Source: Isoetes taiwanensis
Lineage: Eukaryota > Streptophyta > Lycopodiopsida > Isoetales > Isoetaceae
Assembly (NCBI GenBank): GCA_021234155.1
Contig: JAJEKV010000224.1
Location: 248,001 to 312,000 of the forward strand
DNA: 64,000 nt
Direction: 5' to 3'
Below the pieces are notes generated by a model. The model did no database searches. It was not told the origin of the DNA and worked only from the letters and a program-made list of their open reading frames with translations. Positions 54,660 to 64,000 of this stretch are shown piece after piece (the first letter of the stretch is position 1; every line of letters begins with the position of its first letter). A program made the position numbers and the translations under genes.

Positions 54660-56242
54660 TTCCAAAGATAATATCGCTATCACGTATATATATCGTTATC
54701 GTCATTAACGCATACGTCACAAGTGACATGTACTTGAGAGTAGGACAACGTTGCACCTAGGAGCTAAAGGTTGCACCTAGGGGGCAACCTTGGATGTTGG
54801 GTATGTAATTAAACATACACAACAAAAGGTTCCTTGTTCATCCATTTCCAAATGGCTTAAAGCCATTTGCCCATGTGGATGCCCTAACCTAGATAGGGTC
54901 TATATAAGGGCTAAAACCCTAGACCCTAGCTCTCCTTTCACTTTGCCAATTAGGGTTTTCTAGAGCCTCCTTTCCTCTTTCGCAATTAGGGCTTTCCCGG
55001 GCCAATTCGCCAAGGTAAGGCTCGAAATCGCATTGCGAGCTCGAAAAGTCGGATTTGCACAACAAAGTTCTTGAGTAGCAATTTGTCTTCGCAAGATCGA
55101 GCATGGACGCCTTCCGGAGGATCAGGAGCAAGCCAAGGAGCAGGTATCTAGTTGTTCTGTTGTGCAAAACCGTCTTTAGGCATGGCAATATGCCGGTTTA
55201 GTATGTTGGATCATCTCTGGAAGCCTTGTAGATCCCTAGATCTGAGACTCTAACGAATGAACCTAACATTGGATGTTAAGTAGATAGATTGATATGATTC
55301 TCTATCTCTGTTCTGTGATATTGCATGTATTCCACTCTGTGATCTCCTTGTTGTGGGAAGGGGGGTAGAGACCTAAAGGCTGTGTAGAAGATGCTCCTAG
55401 CATAGCACCTTAGTTCCCACATAAATGCGGCCCGTGCACAGGAGCCCACCTGGCTGTGGGTGAAGGGGCAAGGCCGGTTGATAAGGAGAAACTTGTCTCA
55501 TCGCGGACTTACCCCTCTGGTAGTAAAGCCTATCGGGGTCTTTGGCCGGGCTAGGCTTAATGGCTTGTCCGCTGCGTGTGGGCAAGGCATGAGCTCGACA
55601 CTCGTGGGGTGGTGGACATGACCTTCCAGTGAGTTCAAGTCGAATAAGGGCAGTGGCCCTCTAGCCGCCTGCGATGAGCATGGATACCTCTAGAGGAGAG
55701 GCAGCTCTCTTCCTGCCTCATCGGGGTTGGGGAGATGCAACCCAGCAGTAGTAGCCCCTCTGGCTATTCATCCGTGAGCTACGGCCAAGTCCCAACACTT
55801 TTCAGCCTACTTTGCAAAGTGTGCTTGGGGGGGGCGGATGGAGTGGACTACCCTAAGCCATGTTCTATGCCAGCCAAATCCATTGCCATGAATTGCATGC
55901 GCAATGAACTCGGAGGCCTAGCCGGTCATCCCCTTGAGTCCAGAGCCCCGGTAGGATCTTTCATTTGTATTATTGTTATGAAGGTATTGTCGACTCTGTG
56001 ATGTTGCTATGGTTATGGTGATTGTGTTGTATATTATTAGTTGTGCTCATGTTTGTTTGTTACGCTTCAAGCAGATAGGTCGATCCGATGGAAAGGCGGA
56101 TGAATGACACATCCACTCTTCCCTTGCGGCTCTCCCCCCATGGGAGTAGAGGGTGGATGGCCCCTGTCGAGGCATTTGCCGGGGGAATGCTCCTCCTGGA
56201 GAATACGATCGGGCATCATTATAAGGAGTAGGGGATGTCACA
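54660..56242 (+). mobile_element. long LTR-like region with promoter
   Basis: Contains TATATAAG at 54901-54908, followed by telo-box-like AAAACCCTAGACCCTAG and the start of a leader with repeated CAATTAGGG(T/C)TTT. It ends GGGGATGTCACA just before a PBS at 56244. The 5' boundary is unknown and no partner LTR is in the window. ORFs inside have no domain. Confidence 0.5.
54901..54931 (+). promoter_or_regulatory. TATA box with telo-box
   Basis: TATATAAGGGCTAAAACCCT plus AGACCCTAG. A TATA box followed by AAACCCTA (telo-box) is a known plant promoter arrangement. Confidence 0.55.
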
Positions 56243-56243
56243 G

Positions 56244-56255
56244 TGGTATCAGAGC
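56244..56255 (+). other. primer-binding site
   Basis: TGGTATCAGAGC one base after the end of the LTR-like region. No gag could be identified after it. Confidence 0.75.
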
Positions 56256-56457
56256 ATGATCTTGGCATCCAAGATCGAGCACTGGCCATTTTTTTCCTTA
56301 GGACTAACAGTAGATTCGAGTCTTGGGGTATAGCCACCCAAGCAAGAGCTCGAACAATTGGGAAAATTTCCAATTTTTGGGTAGATTTTAACTCCATGAT
56401 AGGTTGCTAGTGAAGTGTAGCATCTTTCCCAACCTAAATTGCCAAAAAAAATAGGCC

Positions 56458-56529
56458 ACCCCTCACAGAGTGCGCCCAGCACCATTCGGTTCGCAAACCG
56501 ATTCCGCCCAGGCGCACTGTGTGAGTGGT
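56458..56529. repeat. cruciform-forming inverted repeat, copy 1
   Basis: Arms ACCCCTCACAGAGTGCGCC (56458-56476) and GGCGCACTGTGTGAGTGGT (56511-56529) pair at 17 of 19 positions. The loop has its own hairpin, CGGTT-CGCA-AACCG. Confidence 0.9.
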
Positions 56530-56671
56530 TGACCTCCGTTGACATAGTTAGGTGTCCCAATTAATTAAGATAATGGTGTAGTTTGGCTTATTCCCTTAGT
56601 TCTAGATAGGTTTGTATGTTATAACACTAAGAAACTCCCTGTAAATTGTAAAATAGCCTCGAAAACAGTCG

Positions 56672-56742
56672 ACCCCTCACAGAGTGCACCCAGACCCTTT
56701 CGGTTGGAATCCAATCTGGCCCAGGCGCACTGTGTGAGTGGT
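56672..56742. repeat. cruciform-forming inverted repeat, copy 2
   Basis: Same outer arms (ACCCCTCACAGAGTGCACC / GGCGCACTGTGTGAGTGGT) 214 bp downstream. The inner loop differs (CCAGA...TCTGG with TTGGAATCCAA), so pairing is kept although the sequence changed. Confidence 0.9.
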
Positions 56743-56791: not shown

Positions 56792-56951
56792 AATGCCACG
56801 ATTCTATTGCAATAGCAATAGAATCGACATTCCTTGGATGGGGACGCCCTATCTTGCTCTCCTATTTATACCGCCTTCTTCCTCATTTCCAGCCATCGGC
56901 GTTCTCTTGAGCTCCTTTCTATTCTGCTCATTTTTGGCTCCACAAGTTTCC
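56792..56951 (+). repeat. promoter-like cassette, copy 1
   Basis: 160 bp almost identical to 62346-62505. It starts with a 12-bp inverted repeat CGATTCTATTGC-AATA-GCAATAGAATCG. CATTCCTTGGATGGGGACGC follows, then a TATA-like CCTATTTATACCGCC (56859) and a C/T-rich leader ending CTCCACAAGTTTCC. Confidence 0.9.
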
Positions 56952-59900
56952 ATCCTTGCACTCACAACTAGAAATCAATCTTTCTGAAAGGTATGCATTT
57001 GATTGTTAGCGGTTTGGTTTATTTTTGTTTTTGGTCCGTTTGCATCCTCTCCTTGTCTTGTTCTGTTTCGGTGGCGTTGTGCTCTAGCTTACAGGATGGA
57101 ACCGTGGTTGTGGATGAGGTTAGTTTTTTCCTTATTTGATTTTCGTTTGCACGTGTTTGTGATGGAGTCGTGATTGTGGATCGAGGTTAGTTTTTTCTAT
57201 CTCCAATTTCTTTTGCAAGTAGCTATCTCTTGGTTTATGATGAGTCATGGTTTATGAATCGATACCTTGTCAGCCTTGGCTAGGTTTGGCTTCTGTTGTG
57301 GAGCTCCACTTCGGCCAGATTTCATAAATCGGTTCCAGTTTTCGGATGGGCCGGATCACAGTTCCATGCTCTCTTTGTTCAGTTTTTTTCAGATCTGCTC
57401 CTCTGCAGGTTTTGCATATGGGCTAGCCACCCAATTCCTAATTAGAACCCACTTCTGAGCCTGCCCATCTTTGCATCCAAGCCCAAAAAATCTGTTTATC
57501 TTATGGTTATGGCAGGAGCTCCTGTTGGGTCACTCCAGCAAAGGCGTCTCTTGAGTTGTGATAAAGATAGCAGATCCCGATCTGGGCGATGGTTGGCTAG
57601 ACCGGAAACTGGTTCTGCTCATCCGAGGACCAGATCGACTTTTCTTATGCTAGATGGATCCCCTTTTGGCCGATCTCTTGGCTTCTAGCTCGGTCTCAGA
57701 GGTTTCTTTTCTATCTCAGATTTTCTGATCAAATCTGTTTGGGTTCTTGACTGCCTTCTATTCCGTAGCCAGATCCTTATGTGTGCCATAGATTGGGTGG
57801 ATCGAGTCGATTATCGTGGTCGGCATCCCCCGAAGACAATTCGCCGATTCTCAAGAACCGCCCTCCGCCTCTGCCGCAGGTGGATTTTCAAGGGGATACC
57901 GGGTCATGGTTTCCCATGGCCCCTTGGCTGGGGGGATACCGGGTCCTCGCTTTCCTTTGATAATTTATTGTATTGGTTCTATAGCTTTGCTTTGCATTTT
58001 TTGTTTTTTCGCTGACATCCGCATTCCCCGGGCTGTGTGCTCCTTTGATTTTTGTCATCCTTGTTCCTACTTAATGTTGGCGGTTCTGTGGAAACTATGT
58101 TTATAATTTTGATTTCCAAATTGAGTTGCCTTAATCTTGGATAAACTACCTTGTCTATCTATTGGAAGGTTGGTGGCCAGTAAGTAGGAGTCATATAAGA
58201 CATATGCCTCGAGCGTTTAATGCTCCAAGATCAGTTCCCTGTGGACCTTCGTATGCACATGTTTCTACATAACACCAACACATCTCGTTGTTTTTTGCAA
58301 TGGTCTTACTTTGGCTTACTCTTTCTACATTTGCCTAGATTTCTTTTTGCGAGGTTCACAATTGTTTGCAGCTAGTAACGAGGTTTTTGTGTTGGGCACA
58401 CGAATCCAATTCGCCTTTTATTCGACATGTATCGCTGTTGTATCCAGGCCGAGCGAGAACCTAGCTTTGATCCCGATCCTCTGGGCAAGGCCTAGATTGG
58501 TGCACAGGGTCTGGCGGAATCCTACTTTAATATCATTGGAGTTTTTGCGTCAACATGTGAGATTGTGGCCTATTGGTAAGGTCTCTCTTTTCTAGTTTCC
58601 AGAGATGGGATCCTGGATCCCACTAGCAAGGTACGTTTTTTGCATCTTTTGTGTTTAAACATTTCCATCTATTTATTTTGCCCAGGGATATATTTGTATT
58701 TTCACGTCAAAACATGTCCAATTTTAGCATTTTTGCGTCTAAACTTTTTCATCTATTAATTTTTGCTAAAAGATGTGTTGTTTTTTGTGCCTCCTCATAT
58801 TGTTGATTTTCACATTTCACTTTCAATTTTTTAAGCTTTTGACACATGTAGAGTTCCATTTTTTCGTGATATTCTTTTGATGCATGTAAGTTCCAGTTTC
58901 TATTGTTCGGTTTAAAAAGACATGCGAAGTTCCGTTGTTTAATTTCGCTTCCTCTGCTTGTATTAGCATGTTGTTCTTGCAGGCTTGCATCCATTGGGCA
59001 TATAGTGGTTTCTATCGACTATCTAGTTTATTACTTGACTATTCCTTAGTTTTCCATCTTTTCAGTCTATGATAGTGGTATTTTGTTAACCTCTTTCTGC
59101 AGGCTATGGGTCCCCTATGATTGCTGATTTTTACGATTACGTGGTTCGTCGGTTCGTTAGGGGTGATTCTTTTCTCTCTATTCTCGTCGTCTTGTAAGTT
59201 TTTTTTTTTTTGGTATTCTCTATGCTTGCACTATTTCTTTTACCACATGTTTTCAATTACAAAATATTTTATATTTTGTATGGTCCTTGCTTCGTTATTC
59301 CAATTTTTCTCCACAGCTTCGAGACATTCTGTGCTTCTGGTACCATTGCTCGTTTTTTCCCATTTTTTCTTTCTGGTCATGGTTTTCAATTTTAATTACT
59401 TTTTTCCTTTTGTGTTGTGTGGATTCTTTGTTTTTCCGTCAAAATTCGTTATATTTTGCAGGTATGGTCCATTTTAATGGCTTTTTGCTCCTCGAATTTG
59501 TTGGCTTATTAGCCTTTTCGACTTTGCTATTTGTCCCCTTAGATTTATTTGTCCCAGTTCTCTTGTTTCTGGCCTTTGTTTCATTCCAACCTCTTTTCAA
59601 TGCTGCCACATTCTTTTTGTCCTGAATTATTCCATTTACTTCCACGACATGGCTTTGACCAAGGTTGTCAGCTGCTCTTTTTTATTCTTGACTGCCCTTT
59701 GTACCGCTTACTCCCTCATTTAGGTCTTGCTTATTCTTGGTCACCCGGTATTCAACTTCCTTCCTTTCTTCTGGTTTGTTAATTTCTTTTACACCATTTT
59801 TCTATTATTTATATGCTCAGTAACTTTATTCACGATCTCGTTTCCCATACTCCGTCGATTTTTTCTCCTTAGATTCTTCGTGTTCGGTTTATATGGTTCG

Positions 59901-62311
59901 ATGTTACATTGTCTGAGCATTAGTATTGCATCTAATTTTGTTCCTTTTTTGTCCAACTACCTTATTTCATGTTGGTTCATCTTTCGTCGCTTGTCTAGTC
60001 TCATTGATCACCTTGAACACTGCTCTGTCGTTTCATTTGGTGACTTTGTTGTTTTCATATCCTCTTGTCGTTGTGATATTCGTTGAATTTGTCTGCGATG
60101 TCCTGACTCATTGTCCCACTACTACGATGGCTTTCCTGCTCAGTTTGATATATTTCCTAGTTTTGATCCGATTCTTTTTTCTTCTTCGTCTCGAGTTGGC
60201 TCCTTTTATTTGTTTTTATATATTAACTTCCCATTGCCTCTTTTATCCACTTATTTCTTGTTTTTAGGGTTTTTACTCTGCATGTCTCATTTGTTCACTC
60301 TTGTTAATTTATTTTTTCTCTGTTTTCCACATATTTTTAGTTCCTTTCTTGTTCTTTTATAGGTTCTTGTTTGTGTTTCCTTTGTCAGTTAATCTTAGAT
60401 TCTCATTTAGTGCTTTTTAGTTCAATTTTTTGTTTGTTTTTTGTTTTACTTCAATTTTTTGTTTACTTCGCTCTTTGGATTTTAGTGTTAGTGTCTCTTT
60501 TAGTTTTTTAAGTTCATTTTTTAGGCATTTTTTCTATGTACCCCCTTTGCTCCATATATTCATCAAGATCCTTTCTAGTTCACTCTCCTTCATTTATTCT
60601 TTAACCTCTTAAATCGCCTTGGGTCCTTTCTTGATTTACCTAGTGAGAGGTCGTGATTTGTCCTTTCAATTTAGTTTAACGTCTTGAAACGACTTGGCTC
60701 ATTTGCTCCTATTTGTTTTGTCTGGCCCTATTTGTATTTGGCCTTGTGTTGGACTAACACTTTGCATTGCATATATTGTACATGTCGACTCGGATTCCAT
60801 GCCCTTATATTTTCACATGTGGTTCTACTAGTTTATCTTGTCTATTGGTTTGTTGGTTAGTTCTATTTACACATTACCTTAGGTTGTTCCGCTTTTAATG
60901 TTTTGGTTGCGATTGTTTTCATTGCTCCGCTGTGTCATTGTACCTCTTTTTGGTTATATGTTTTCCATAAGTATCAATTTTTCCTTTGTTTCCTACATGC
61001 TCCATTTGCTTAGCTATTTGGTTAGGTCACATTTGCTCTATTGACAGTCCTATTATGCCTGGTGCACGTTGTTTCATTAGTCTCCCTTTGTTGCCCCATT
61101 GGCTTTGTCGATTCTTGGTGTTGCAGAAACCTTAGATCATATTATCCCATTTGTCGCTTGTTCCTTTTCCAGTTTGCTCTGCTTGGCCATGTTGCGCCAT
61201 AGGTCTTTGTTCTCCGTTTATTGCATTGATCCCGTTCCACATGCATATCTCTTATCCTATTAGTTTGGTGTTAATAGTCTCGCATTCAATTATTCCAGTT
61301 TTAGTCCATGTTCTCACGTTGGTTCAATTTTATTCCATGGGGCCCTTTCTTGACTCATTTTCTCCTTCAGTTTCCAGTCACAGTTTTTATTTCTCTCTCT
61401 TGCTCTTTTTCTCTGAAGTTTTTGAGTCTATGTATTTCCTTCTTATTTTTTCTCTTCTATTGCCCGTAGTTATATTTGTTCTTTAGTTCGCTTTCGTCTA
61501 TTTGGACTCCATTAATCAGGGTTTACTCACTCCTTCTGTCTCATTTGCGTCTTTGGACCGTTACCTTCGCCTCATTTCTTTTCCTCTCATTATTTCCCTT
61601 GTTTTGCCTTTAGCATCGTTTTTATGATGTCGTCGCTTTCTATTTTGGAATCTCTCTTCGCATCATGTTGTTGTCTCAGGTGTGCCTTGTTATTGTCAAG
61701 TTTTTTGATCTCCATTTCTTTGATCTAGTTTGTCTTTTTAATCGTTATCGTCTCCTTGTTCTTTTCTCAGTTGTCCATTTTCTCCCTTGGGTCTGGCTTT
61801 GCGAATATGTCATTGTTCGATCTCTTCCCTTGTCTGATATTCTCTTTGACCCCGTTATCTCCTTTGTGTAGTGCCTTTTTTGCTTTTACTTTAATTGGCC
61901 TCTTCTTTCCACTTGTCGGCCTTACTTCATTCATCCCATCGACTCCTTTTGTTCCCAGTCCATTATGTTTGTGCGTATTTACCTCCTTTGCTTCTTTTAT
62001 CTTTGGGCTTACTTGCACCTTTGTATTACGCTAGTCCTCTGGGTTACATATTTCTACCTTTACTATGTCTCCTCTTGCTTCGTCTTACTTCTCTTTCTCT
62101 GTTGGCATCCATATATCATGCTTTGTGCCTCTGCGTTGATTATCGATTACTCTATCCCCCTTTGCTTCATGATTTCTTTGTTTGCCTCCTTTGCTTTGAT
62201 CTTTTCCAATCGTCTCTTACGCCAATTTTCTTCATGCGTTTCGCTTTTGGACGGTTTTCCCTTGTCATCTTGGTTTGATCTATTCTTTTTGAGGTTGATT
62301 CCTCTTCTATC
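56952..62311. other. T-rich plus strand, no gene recognised
   Basis: About 5.4 kb of strong strand asymmetry: T dominates, A is scarce, with many TTTTC/TTTGT runs, most extreme from 59100 to 62300. The many ORFs of 60-130 codons are hydrophobic Phe/Leu/Ser-rich by-products of this composition, with no domain or shared start. No introns, tRNA or repeats of note were found. Confidence 0.6.
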
Positions 62312-62351
62312 GGCCAACTACTTGTTTCATAGGACCCATCCTAGGAATGCC
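62312..62351 (+). repeat. 40-bp direct repeat X, copy 1
   Basis: GGCCAACTACTTGTTTCATA plus GGACCCATCCTAGGAATGCC recurs exactly at 63393-63432. Here it abuts the promoter-like cassette. Confidence 0.95.
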
Positions 62352-62505
62352 ATGATTCTATTGCAATAGCAATAGAATCGACATTCCTTGGATGGGGACG
62401 CCCTATCTTGCTCTCCTATTTATACCGCCTTCTTCCTCATTTCCAGCCATCGGCGTTCTCTTGAGCTCCTTTCTATTCTGCTCATTTTTGGCTCCACAAG
62501 TTTCC
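62346..62505 (+). repeat. promoter-like cassette, copy 2
   Basis: Near-identical to 56792-56951. Because repeat X precedes it, the inverted repeat is longer here: arms 62335-62364 (CCCATCCTAGGAATG...TTGC) and 62369-62396 (GCAATAGAATCGACATTCCT...GGG) with loop AATA and only a few mismatches. TATA-like CCTATTTATACC follows. Confidence 0.92.
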
Positions 62506-62720
62506 CGCCCCCCCTCTCCCTCTGATATATTTGAGCTTGTTTCATTTCTTCACCCTACTTCTCGTTTTCATATTTCGTTCCTTTGTTAAAGTTGCTCCCT
62601 TTCTTTTTAGTCTATGTCTGTCTAATCTTCTTTACTTCTCGAGTCACCTTGTAGCCCCTGATATCCTCCATGCCTCCTTTCTATCTTTTTTGGAAGTGCA
62701 TATGTTCTTATTTTTTCATG

Positions 62721-63218
62721 TTTCTCGATGTGGCTCTGTCGCCTCTGAGACTTTCTTATCATTTGTTCTTTCTCAACGTGGTTATGGCCTTCGAGATATG
62801 ATTTCTTGTTATTTTTTCTTGACATGGCGAGTATTTTATTTATTCATTCATGTTTTCTCTCGGTGTGGCGTTGTAGCCTCTCAGTCAATATTTTATTCAT
62901 ATTTTCTCTCGGCGTGGCGTTGTTGCCTCCGAGAATCATATTTATTGGTTTTTCTCGGCGTGGCGCTGTAGCCTCCGAGGCAGCACTAATCGGTTGTTTT
63001 TTCCCGCGATGGTCATTCCGCGGACGGTTCCCGATTAGTCGGCTGTTGTTTCTTTCTCGGCGTGGCCCTGGAGCTTCCGAGTCGTCTTGCCTATGGCATT
63101 TAACTCATTGACGGGTTATTTTTCTTTCAGCCTTGATTCTGCAGGATTGTTTCAGGTCTTATGCTTGCCATAATGCGTGGGGTCGTTCTTTCTCGGCGTG
63201 GCCCTGGAGCCTCCGAGT
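62721..63218 (+). repeat. array of TTTCTCGGCGTGGCG-TAGCCTCCGAG motifs
   Basis: About eight copies at 62721, 62769, 62855, 62905, 62950, 62998 (variant CCCGCGATGGTCATTCCGCGG), 63052 and 63189. Each begins with T-run plus CTCGG and ends CCGAG about 20 bp later, so each can form a small hairpin. The last two are part of a tandem duplication of about 136 bp (63081-63152 versus 63217-63289). Confidence 0.88.
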
Positions 63219-63392
63219 CTTCTTGCCTATGGCATCTAACTCATTGACGGGTTATTTTTCTTTCAGCCTTGATTCTGTAGGATTGTTTAAGGCTTTGTGA
63301 TTGCCATAGTGCGTGGGGTCGTGGGGTCGTGCTTCAACTATTTGCTTGGGTTTCATCAAAAACCTAAGAAGGCGTGGTTCTTCTTCCCGTTG

Positions 63393-63432
63393 GGCCAACT
63401 ACTTGTTTCATAGGACCCATCCTAGGAATGCC
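63393..63432 (+). repeat. 40-bp direct repeat X, copy 2
   Basis: Identical to 62312-62351. Here it leads into a different promoter region. Confidence 0.95.
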
Positions 63433-63493: not shown

Positions 63494-63516
63494 TATAAAT
63501 AGAAAATTAGGGTTTC
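63494..63516 (+). promoter_or_regulatory. TATA box and telo-box upstream of the H3-tail ORF
   Basis: TATAAATA at 63494-63501, then TTAGGGTTT (reverse telo-box) at 63508-63516. The ORF start lies about 105 bp downstream of the TATA box, which allows a 5' leader of about 75 nt. Confidence 0.6.
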
Positions 63517-63602: not shown

Positions 63603-63968
63603 ATGGCACGGACGAAACAGACTGCCCGCAAGGTTATGCCACCCGGTTATGTGAGCGCCCAGGAGCGAGCCATCCGACAGAAGGCCAGACGGAGGCAAGT
63701 GCACATCGGGGAAGAGGCGGCACCGGTTGAACCACCTAACCCTAACCCCAAGAGCGTGAACAGTGCACGGAGCACCTTGATTGGGGAGGCGACGGGGGCG
63801 AGCCGAGGAGGGAGCCGGCCGAGGGAGATCTTCGGGATAATGAGGAACCGTGAGCCGAACCAAAGAAGAAGAAGAGGGAAAGAGAAGAAGGCGAAGCCGA
63901 GGAAATCCAAGGCGAGGCCGGAAGGAAAAGGAAGAACTAAGAAAGAGGAGGGAGGAGAAGGAATGTAA
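63603..63968 (+). CDS. basic protein with an exact histone H3 N-terminal tail
   Basis: 121 codons. Residues 1-10 are MARTKQTARK, identical to histone H3 through K9 (counting from Ala after Met removal). Val replaces Ser10 and no H3 fold follows. Residues 11-32 are VMPPGYVSAQERAIRQ-type then KARRRQ. A Pro-rich linker (about 38-50, EEAAPVEPPNPNPK) and an Arg/Lys/Glu-rich tail (84-121) follow. The start is the first ATG after a TATA box, and the context AAAGCATGGCAC is good for plants. The H3-like residues carry K4 and K9, substrates of histone methyltransferases and ligands of PHD/chromodomain readers. No transmembrane or signal sequence. It sits in transposon-derived sequence, so it may be the first ORF of an element that continues past the window. 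A host gene fragment or chance are alternatives, though ten exact residues from the initiator Met make chance unlikely. Confidence 0.6.
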   Translation: MARTKQTARKVMPPGYVSAQERAIRQKARRRQVHIGEEAAPVEPPNPNPKSVNSARSTLIGEATGASRGGSRPREIFGIMRNREPNQRRRRGKEKKAKPRKSKARPEGKGRTKKEEGGEGM

Positions 63969-64000
63969 GAGGGAAGAAAGGAGGAAGCGCAAAGAGGAGC

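Follow-up and report, generated by a model that had tools for sequence, protein, structure and literature searches.

We have found that the open reading frame near the end of the window (the whole 64,000-nucleotide stretch of Isoetes taiwanensis DNA that was analysed, bases 248001-312000 of its contig) belongs to a Ty3/gypsy retrotransposon with a chromodomain, of whose ORF1 it is a damaged copy. Comparison with other copies established that the product of intact ORF1, as read from its translations, is a divergent histone H3 in which a long insertion separates the tail from the fold, and that both tail and fold, judging from substitution patterns, have been retained by purifying selection through many subfamilies. 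The features are collected in Table 1; there and below, extended coordinates are the window numbering carried on past position 64000.

Table 1. Features of the host element and its ORF1 copy in the window
Feature	Position	Strand	Remarks
5' LTR of host element	54716..56242	+	partner at 73104-74632 (extended coordinates); 94.2% identity over 1,552 aligned columns
Primer binding site TGGTATCAGAGC	56244..56255	+	directly 3' of LTR end
Two leader repeats	56448..56742	+	found again downstream of ORF1
Secondary insertion in leader, ~6.6 kb	56798..63426	.	foreign to the element proper; absent from locus L004
TATA box	63494..63501	+	at -109 of ATG
Telo-box TAGGGTTT	63508..63515	+	at -95 of ATG
ORF1, broken	63603..63968	+	121 aa; frame leaves that of intact relatives after residue 49 (base 63750)
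H3 tail codons MARTKQTARK	63603..63632	+	sequence read; constraint across copies

The window ORF opens with MARTKQTARK, which after the Met is identical to H3 residues 1-9, as an earlier note on this DNA had recognized. The TATA box, telo-box and good ATG context (A at -3, G at +4) listed in that note are likewise present. The note went on to describe the rest of the product as a basic, disordered-looking protein with no H3 fold. Residues 50-121 do have this appearance, but since the frame departs after residue 49 they are out-of-frame relative to the intact copies. The statement on the fold was wrong, as in-frame relatives run on into a histone fold and the window copy itself has fold pieces beyond the window end, at 64502-64633 and 64684-64779 (extended coordinates). 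Thus, of the proposed H3-tail mimic, an exact tail encoded by an element stands; a tail-only mimic is ruled out by the fold in the intact copies (13 distinct intact ORFs), whose product is a divergent H3 instead.

The genome searched comprised 1,658,258,908 bases in 1,110 contigs. A DNA search scored 40 copies of 237 candidates, and a search with the first 50 ORF1 residues gave the best 150 of 730 candidates. Thirty loci were fetched and 29 translated, of which ten continue from the tail into a complete C-terminus (for example ...LTREILQEFDPSKRVTDDMLLALQEASEQHIVHYFEDSVACAQHAKRVTCMPKDIRLAQFIKKE); one locus read in this way, L019, has a local disturbance. Nineteen of 20 more distant loci also showed the fold, the remaining locus (L041) having been fetched too short, and with these added there were 13 distinct intact family-A ORFs of 379-415 aa. 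Their architecture is an H3 tail (residues 1-8 or 1-9), a long charged linker of ~290 residues replacing the rest of the tail, and a complete C-terminal H3 fold. Many other ORF1 copies are frame-broken. The fold matched a PDB H3 at E 2.6e-25 in a PDB profile search, Pfam Histone was matched in all 12 members searched, and 43 of 87 aligned residues are identical to host H3. Residues C110, H113, K115, R116, T118, D123 and L126 are retained in the examined copies of families A and C, and H113, R116, D123 and L126, which are residues of the H3-H3' interface, are the same as in the host in all five proteins aligned. In a low-confidence structure model, helices are predicted at 305-319, 326-340, 348-380 and 386-392, in the order of the H3 helices; the AlphaFold models had mean pLDDT values of only 57.6 and 42.5. 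Family A departs from H3 at the DNA-contact residues R63, L65 and K79 and in the N-terminal portion of the alpha-N region, and nucleosomes, if formed, may therefore be weak.

Selection was measured by NG86 dN/dS over all pairs of the 13 intact ORFs. The values were 0.051 for residues 1-10, 0.357 for 11-50, 0.231 for 51-161, 0.199 for 161-301 and 0.095 for the fold, so that the tail is the most constrained segment of ORF1. Codon-level pN/pS was taken from 82 of 90 copies, eight being left out because the ATG was lost or a stop was present. For codons 2-9, pN was 0.040 and pS 0.575 (pN/pS 0.069), and pN/pS was 0.380 for codons 11-20 and 0.420 for codons 21-30; as most copies were collected through their similarity to the N-terminal 50 residues, amino-acid variation is lowered throughout in these figures, and it is the contrast within copies that stands. 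All ten tail residues (Met and H3 1-9 exact) were found in 38 of 51 distinct family-A copies. The earlier note had asked whether homologs keep the first ten residues, whether the tail decays as fast as its surroundings, and whether copies lie upstream of gag-pol with MARTKQTARK under purifying selection. Homologs do keep them, the tail is the slowest-evolving part of ORF1, and selected copies upstream of gag-pol are what was observed.

The exception within the tail is codon 10, encoding K9, which is its least constrained codon (pN 0.388, pS 0.474, pN/pS 0.82). Among 90 family-A copies this position is K in 43, I in 27, M in 11, V in 7, Q in 1 and T in 1, with a few copies frame-shifted there; V and L also occur at this position among copies. 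Genome-wide, the pattern ATG-ARTKQTA followed by CG or AG has 1,888 sites, of which 1,051 have an arginine-type codon and K, 394 have I or M, and 443 are other. K9 is kept in the youngest subfamily, to which the window copy belongs. Since codon 10 is so little constrained, the main reading proposed below was not built on position 9.

The element that carries ORF1 is a Ty3/gypsy chromovirus by its LTRs, primer binding site, gag, RNase H and chromodomain. Its primer binding site we take to resemble the initiator-Met tRNA type. Contig self-comparison and Pfam gave the order between the LTRs as ORF1, tandem repeats, pieces of an ORF of unknown kind, gag, RNase H, a weak integrase core and a chromodomain, with Pfam values of 7.5e-11 for Retrotrans_gag, 8.4e-8 for RT_RNaseH and 1.1e-10 for Chromo at the end of pol; the integrase core (0.0086) is below the cut-off. 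Reverse transcriptase (RT) was identified by eye and by its numerous genome matches. By eye, the chromodomain is without two of the three cage aromatics of type I, as that type is defined in the relevant passage of PMC6317226. No matching pair of target-site duplications was seen at the two outer ends of the element. A hAT family was listed for none of the 16 proteins scanned, and direct LTRs and gag-pol are present in place of a hAT transposase and terminal inverted repeats.

Where ORF1 accompanies RT, its distance is steady. An RT query gave the best 150 of 18,196 candidates, and of the first 74 rows, which were examined for linkage, 31 had a same-strand ORF1 tail no more than 20 kb upstream, at a median RT-to-ORF1 distance of 6,156 bp; in 27 of the 31 the distance was 4.6-7.4 kb. 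The chance expectation of an upstream tail is 0.0009 per RT. Among the same 74 rows no tail was found on the opposite strand, and a same-strand downstream tail was found in two.

The secondary insertion was delimited by L004, which runs through that point without it and where ~0.72 kb separates the end of the LTR match (833) from the ORF1 ATG (1554), and by L002-L008, which leave the window sequence upstream of 63427. At its start the insertion has inverted sequence around ACGATTCTATTGC; it has direct repeats of 160 bp (56792-56951 and 62346-62505, 99%), and its end lies close to minisatellite-like repeats at 62843-63322. Further ORF pieces were seen between the H3 ORF and gag in both families (L009:2080-3704 and L071:158-2045); they gave no Pfam match above cut-off, and the A and B versions showed no clear alignment. 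By eye, a second Ty3/gypsy-like element with long gag- and RT-like frames lies just downstream on the minus strand in L010 (4838-9051).

The sequence ahead of ORF1 is also largely retained. A TATA box at -108 to -112 before the ATG was found in 48 of 51 distinct copies, and a telo-box no more than 200 bp from the ATG, at variable position, in 43 of 51. A block containing AATTGCAGGTCC, AAACCCTAA, TATAAATA and TAGGGTT is mostly retained in an alignment of 15 copies, drawn from near as well as distant subfamilies; TTGCAGGT could alternatively be a splice acceptor. A host H3 promoter as the origin of this region was rejected, as by eye none of 12 host upstream regions matched the block. Of those 12, eight have a TATA box at -69 to -95 and one more has it at -134; a telo-box is present in one.

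The exact tail is not confined to one family. A degenerate 30-mer for ATG-ARTKQTARK had 1,051 exact genome matches and the reversed pattern had none, indicating that the tail sequence is not due to chance. The motif HAKRVTxMxxD had 4,209 matches and its control none; ordinary H3 genes are included in both counts. These genes number ~15, taken as the matches of nearly the whole profile that top a Pfam Histone search (best 150 of 8,705 candidates); 12 of the 15 were checked upstream and all 12 open with an ordinary H3 start. Element-borne H3 sites far outnumber the H3 genes of the host. Of 27 exact tails in contigs up to C99, 14 had a same-strand HAKRVTxMxxD within 3 kb downstream, 13 of them at 1.0-1.3 kb and one being an ordinary H3 gene. 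The exact-tail sites fall in several families with poorly alignable middles, and representatives of the several ORF1 types after residue 10 are 8-42% identical over residues 11-60. Among 20 loci with 20 different tail DNAs, a fold signal was seen in 19, in some partial or weak, and not in L145. Eight loci picked among tails without K9 gave a fold signal in four, one of them weak, and none within the fetched 1.5 kb in the other four. Most of these 28 loci are frame-broken. In L155 (113-949) and L156, the tails MARTKQTARM and MARTKQTARV lead into a protein of quite another kind, with 279 aa open in L155; the 1.5 kb fetched show no H3 fold, and this may be a tail-only or longer relative. Genome searches with H4 returned 46 matches from 67 candidates and those with H2B 21 from 33, that is, no amplification of the H3 kind, where the H3 side is represented by the Histone profile search and the tail and HAKRVTxMxxD counts and not by a like-for-like query. 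For H4 and H2B there was no sign of capture by the element. Relatives were also sought in viral contigs, where none of 23 pattern stretches was confirmed.

A second family, B, has an ORF1 with a different N-terminal domain, a linker and an H3 fold, without an H3 tail at the N-terminus, which indicates that the lineage does not require the tail throughout. Its fold equals host H3 at 82 of 94 and 85 of 95 residues in two copies. The B copy that was followed (L068, L071) has downstream a gag at 9.8e-5, just below the Pfam cut-off, and a protease at 8.6e-14. The gag proteins of A and B are 56-61% identical, and the architectures of their ORF1 differ. Fold dN/dS is 0.05 within B1 and B3, and B2 copies have identical fold proteins at a pS of 0.33. 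In a fold tree the B clade (98/80) stands beside host H3 and family A on a long branch, the inner branches being weak. The N-terminal domain (L065-L070, L072-L076) is of ~200 residues and unnamed, and B1 and B2 share 42% identity along the entire protein.

What the ORF1 product does can at present be proposed from its sequence only. We consider it about an even chance that it is an H3 variant made by the element, which pairs with H4 and displays the K4 module without most of the other tail lysines. As Met before Ala is removed as a rule, the tail would be exposed; the protein would then dimerise with host H4 through its fold and enter chromatin, or bind H3 chaperones, and the A1-R8 docking module would be offered to H3K4 readers and writers. 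The native contexts of K14, K18, K23, K27 and K36 would be missing, and many copies would present an aliphatic residue for K9, so that chromatin with this protein could receive K4 methylation while lacking the K27 mark and, to some extent, that on K9. By shielding its expression or its new copies from silencing, the protein would benefit the element. The exact tail, the H3 fold, the constraint on both, the steady linkage to RT, the fixed TATA box and the lack of H4 or H2B amplification support this reading; the low-confidence models, altered DNA contacts, free codon 10, N-terminus-based sampling, broken copies and tailless family B count against it. A bolder version, which we put forward only tentatively and regard as doubtful, is that a retrotransposon lineage writes its own chromatin code: private H3 variants, with the K4 module near-absolutely constrained, the other tail lysines discarded and an aliphatic residue 9 in many copies escaping and trapping H3K9 methyltransferases, would make chromatin that reads as active and resists silencing, in an arms race fought with histones.

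It was also considered that the protein might be a soluble decoy whose tail occupies H3 readers or methyltransferases without having to enter nucleosomes. K-to-M and K-to-I changes in H3 tails inhibit SET-domain methyltransferases, and the I and M forms at position 9 (27 and 11 of the 90 family-A copies, 394 codons genome-wide) would trap the H3K9 enzymes and lower silencing; the strong constraint on codons 2-9 agrees with such a use. A decoy, however, needs no conserved histone fold, whereas the fold has the second lowest dN/dS of the protein; K is kept in the youngest subfamily, the window copy included; and V and L occur as well at a codon that is the least constrained of the tail. We judge this unlikely. 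Equally unlikely in our view is a packaging or targeting factor, which would coat the cDNA or RNA of the element or, through its fold and basic linker, guide the integration complex to chromatin that is H4-rich or newly replicated. The place of ORF1 upstream of gag, the highly charged linker and the additional chromodomain with its incomplete cage would suit this role, yet it leaves unexplained why the strongest constraint falls on H3 residues 1-8. A fragment of a host gene, captured and then multiplied with the element as a functionless passenger, would fit the many frame-broken copies and the frequency of gene capture by transposons described in passages of PMC7264820, but the purifying selection on tail and fold, the long intact ORFs in diverged subfamilies and the fixed promoter all speak against it, and because of the selection data we find it scarcely credible.

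A CENH3-like role, in which a selfish centromeric H3 would draw the element or kinetochore proteins, was considered as well. Family B1 has a remnant of the tail, RTKHP, a motif of plant CENH3; L064 and L076 have T in place of P in MPKD; and the CENP-T histone-fold model was weakly matched in 8 of 12. Against this, loop 1, which is longer in CENH3 than in H3, is of ordinary H3 length in the aligned A, B and C folds, the best 60 PDB matches are named H3 and none CENP-A, and the B folds group beside host H3 in a tree that holds no CENH3. We therefore consider such a role improbable. L064 was dropped as a candidate for the host CENH3, as L076 is a protein of the same sort whose N-terminal part is element-like; a host CENH3 was not found in the searched genome.

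If the H3-variant reading is correct, it would mean that a core histone can be captured by a retrotransposon and go on serving as a working component of the element's life cycle. The family would also be a natural experiment on H3 residues, with A1-R8 and the fold preserved, K9 almost free and the remaining tail dispensable. These claims are open to testing in a plant whose genome is published. They also bring a warning that in such genomes histone counts and repeat-masked annotation can miss or misassign histones encoded by elements.

Viral histones and short H3-tail mimics are non-host proteins that reproduce a histone or the H3 tail, the mimics by a short motif only; ORF1, in contrast, has both tail and fold and belongs to an endogenous retrotransposon. 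Additional ORFs of LTR retrotransposons in plants and a rotifer are a known class, according to the passages seen of PMC7264820 and PMC5408684, and the review PMC12786077 describes an AlkB-type demethylase ORF in an orchid Ty3/gypsy element. Like these, ORF1 is an extra ORF beside gag-pol, one of them being a captured host-type protein that counters host control; it is located between the 5' LTR and gag. No histone is named among additional ORFs in the passages of these three papers, and the word does not occur in the main text of PMC7264820 and PMC5408684, nor in that of the I. taiwanensis (PMC8566536) and I. sinensis (PMC10541799) genome papers. Tcn1-like chromoviruses of non-seed plants share gag, pol and a C-terminal chromodomain with the Isoetes element, as described in sections of PMC2864245; SM-Tcn1 there is 5.7 kb with two ORFs, while the Isoetes element is much larger, with an H3 ORF and a further unknown one. 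A report of a retrotransposon-encoded histone was not found in the passages returned from the open-licence PMC literature (bioRxiv being outside this scope). An H3-like gene in a mobile element is, as far as the text consulted goes, already known in the form of H3L, carried by a hAT DNA transposon of the fungus Pyrenophora tritici-repentis (Manning et al. 2013, PMC3538342), for which ESTs were reported. H3L and ORF1 are alike in being an extra H3-like ORF in a mobile element, with insertions in the tail, and amplified. H3L, by the passages of that paper, belongs to a cut-and-paste element with 26 near-identical copies; the Isoetes case, in an LTR retrotransposon of a plant, is unusually large and well conserved, with ~1,000 exact-tail sites in many diverged families, tail residues 1-9 intact and the constraint measured.
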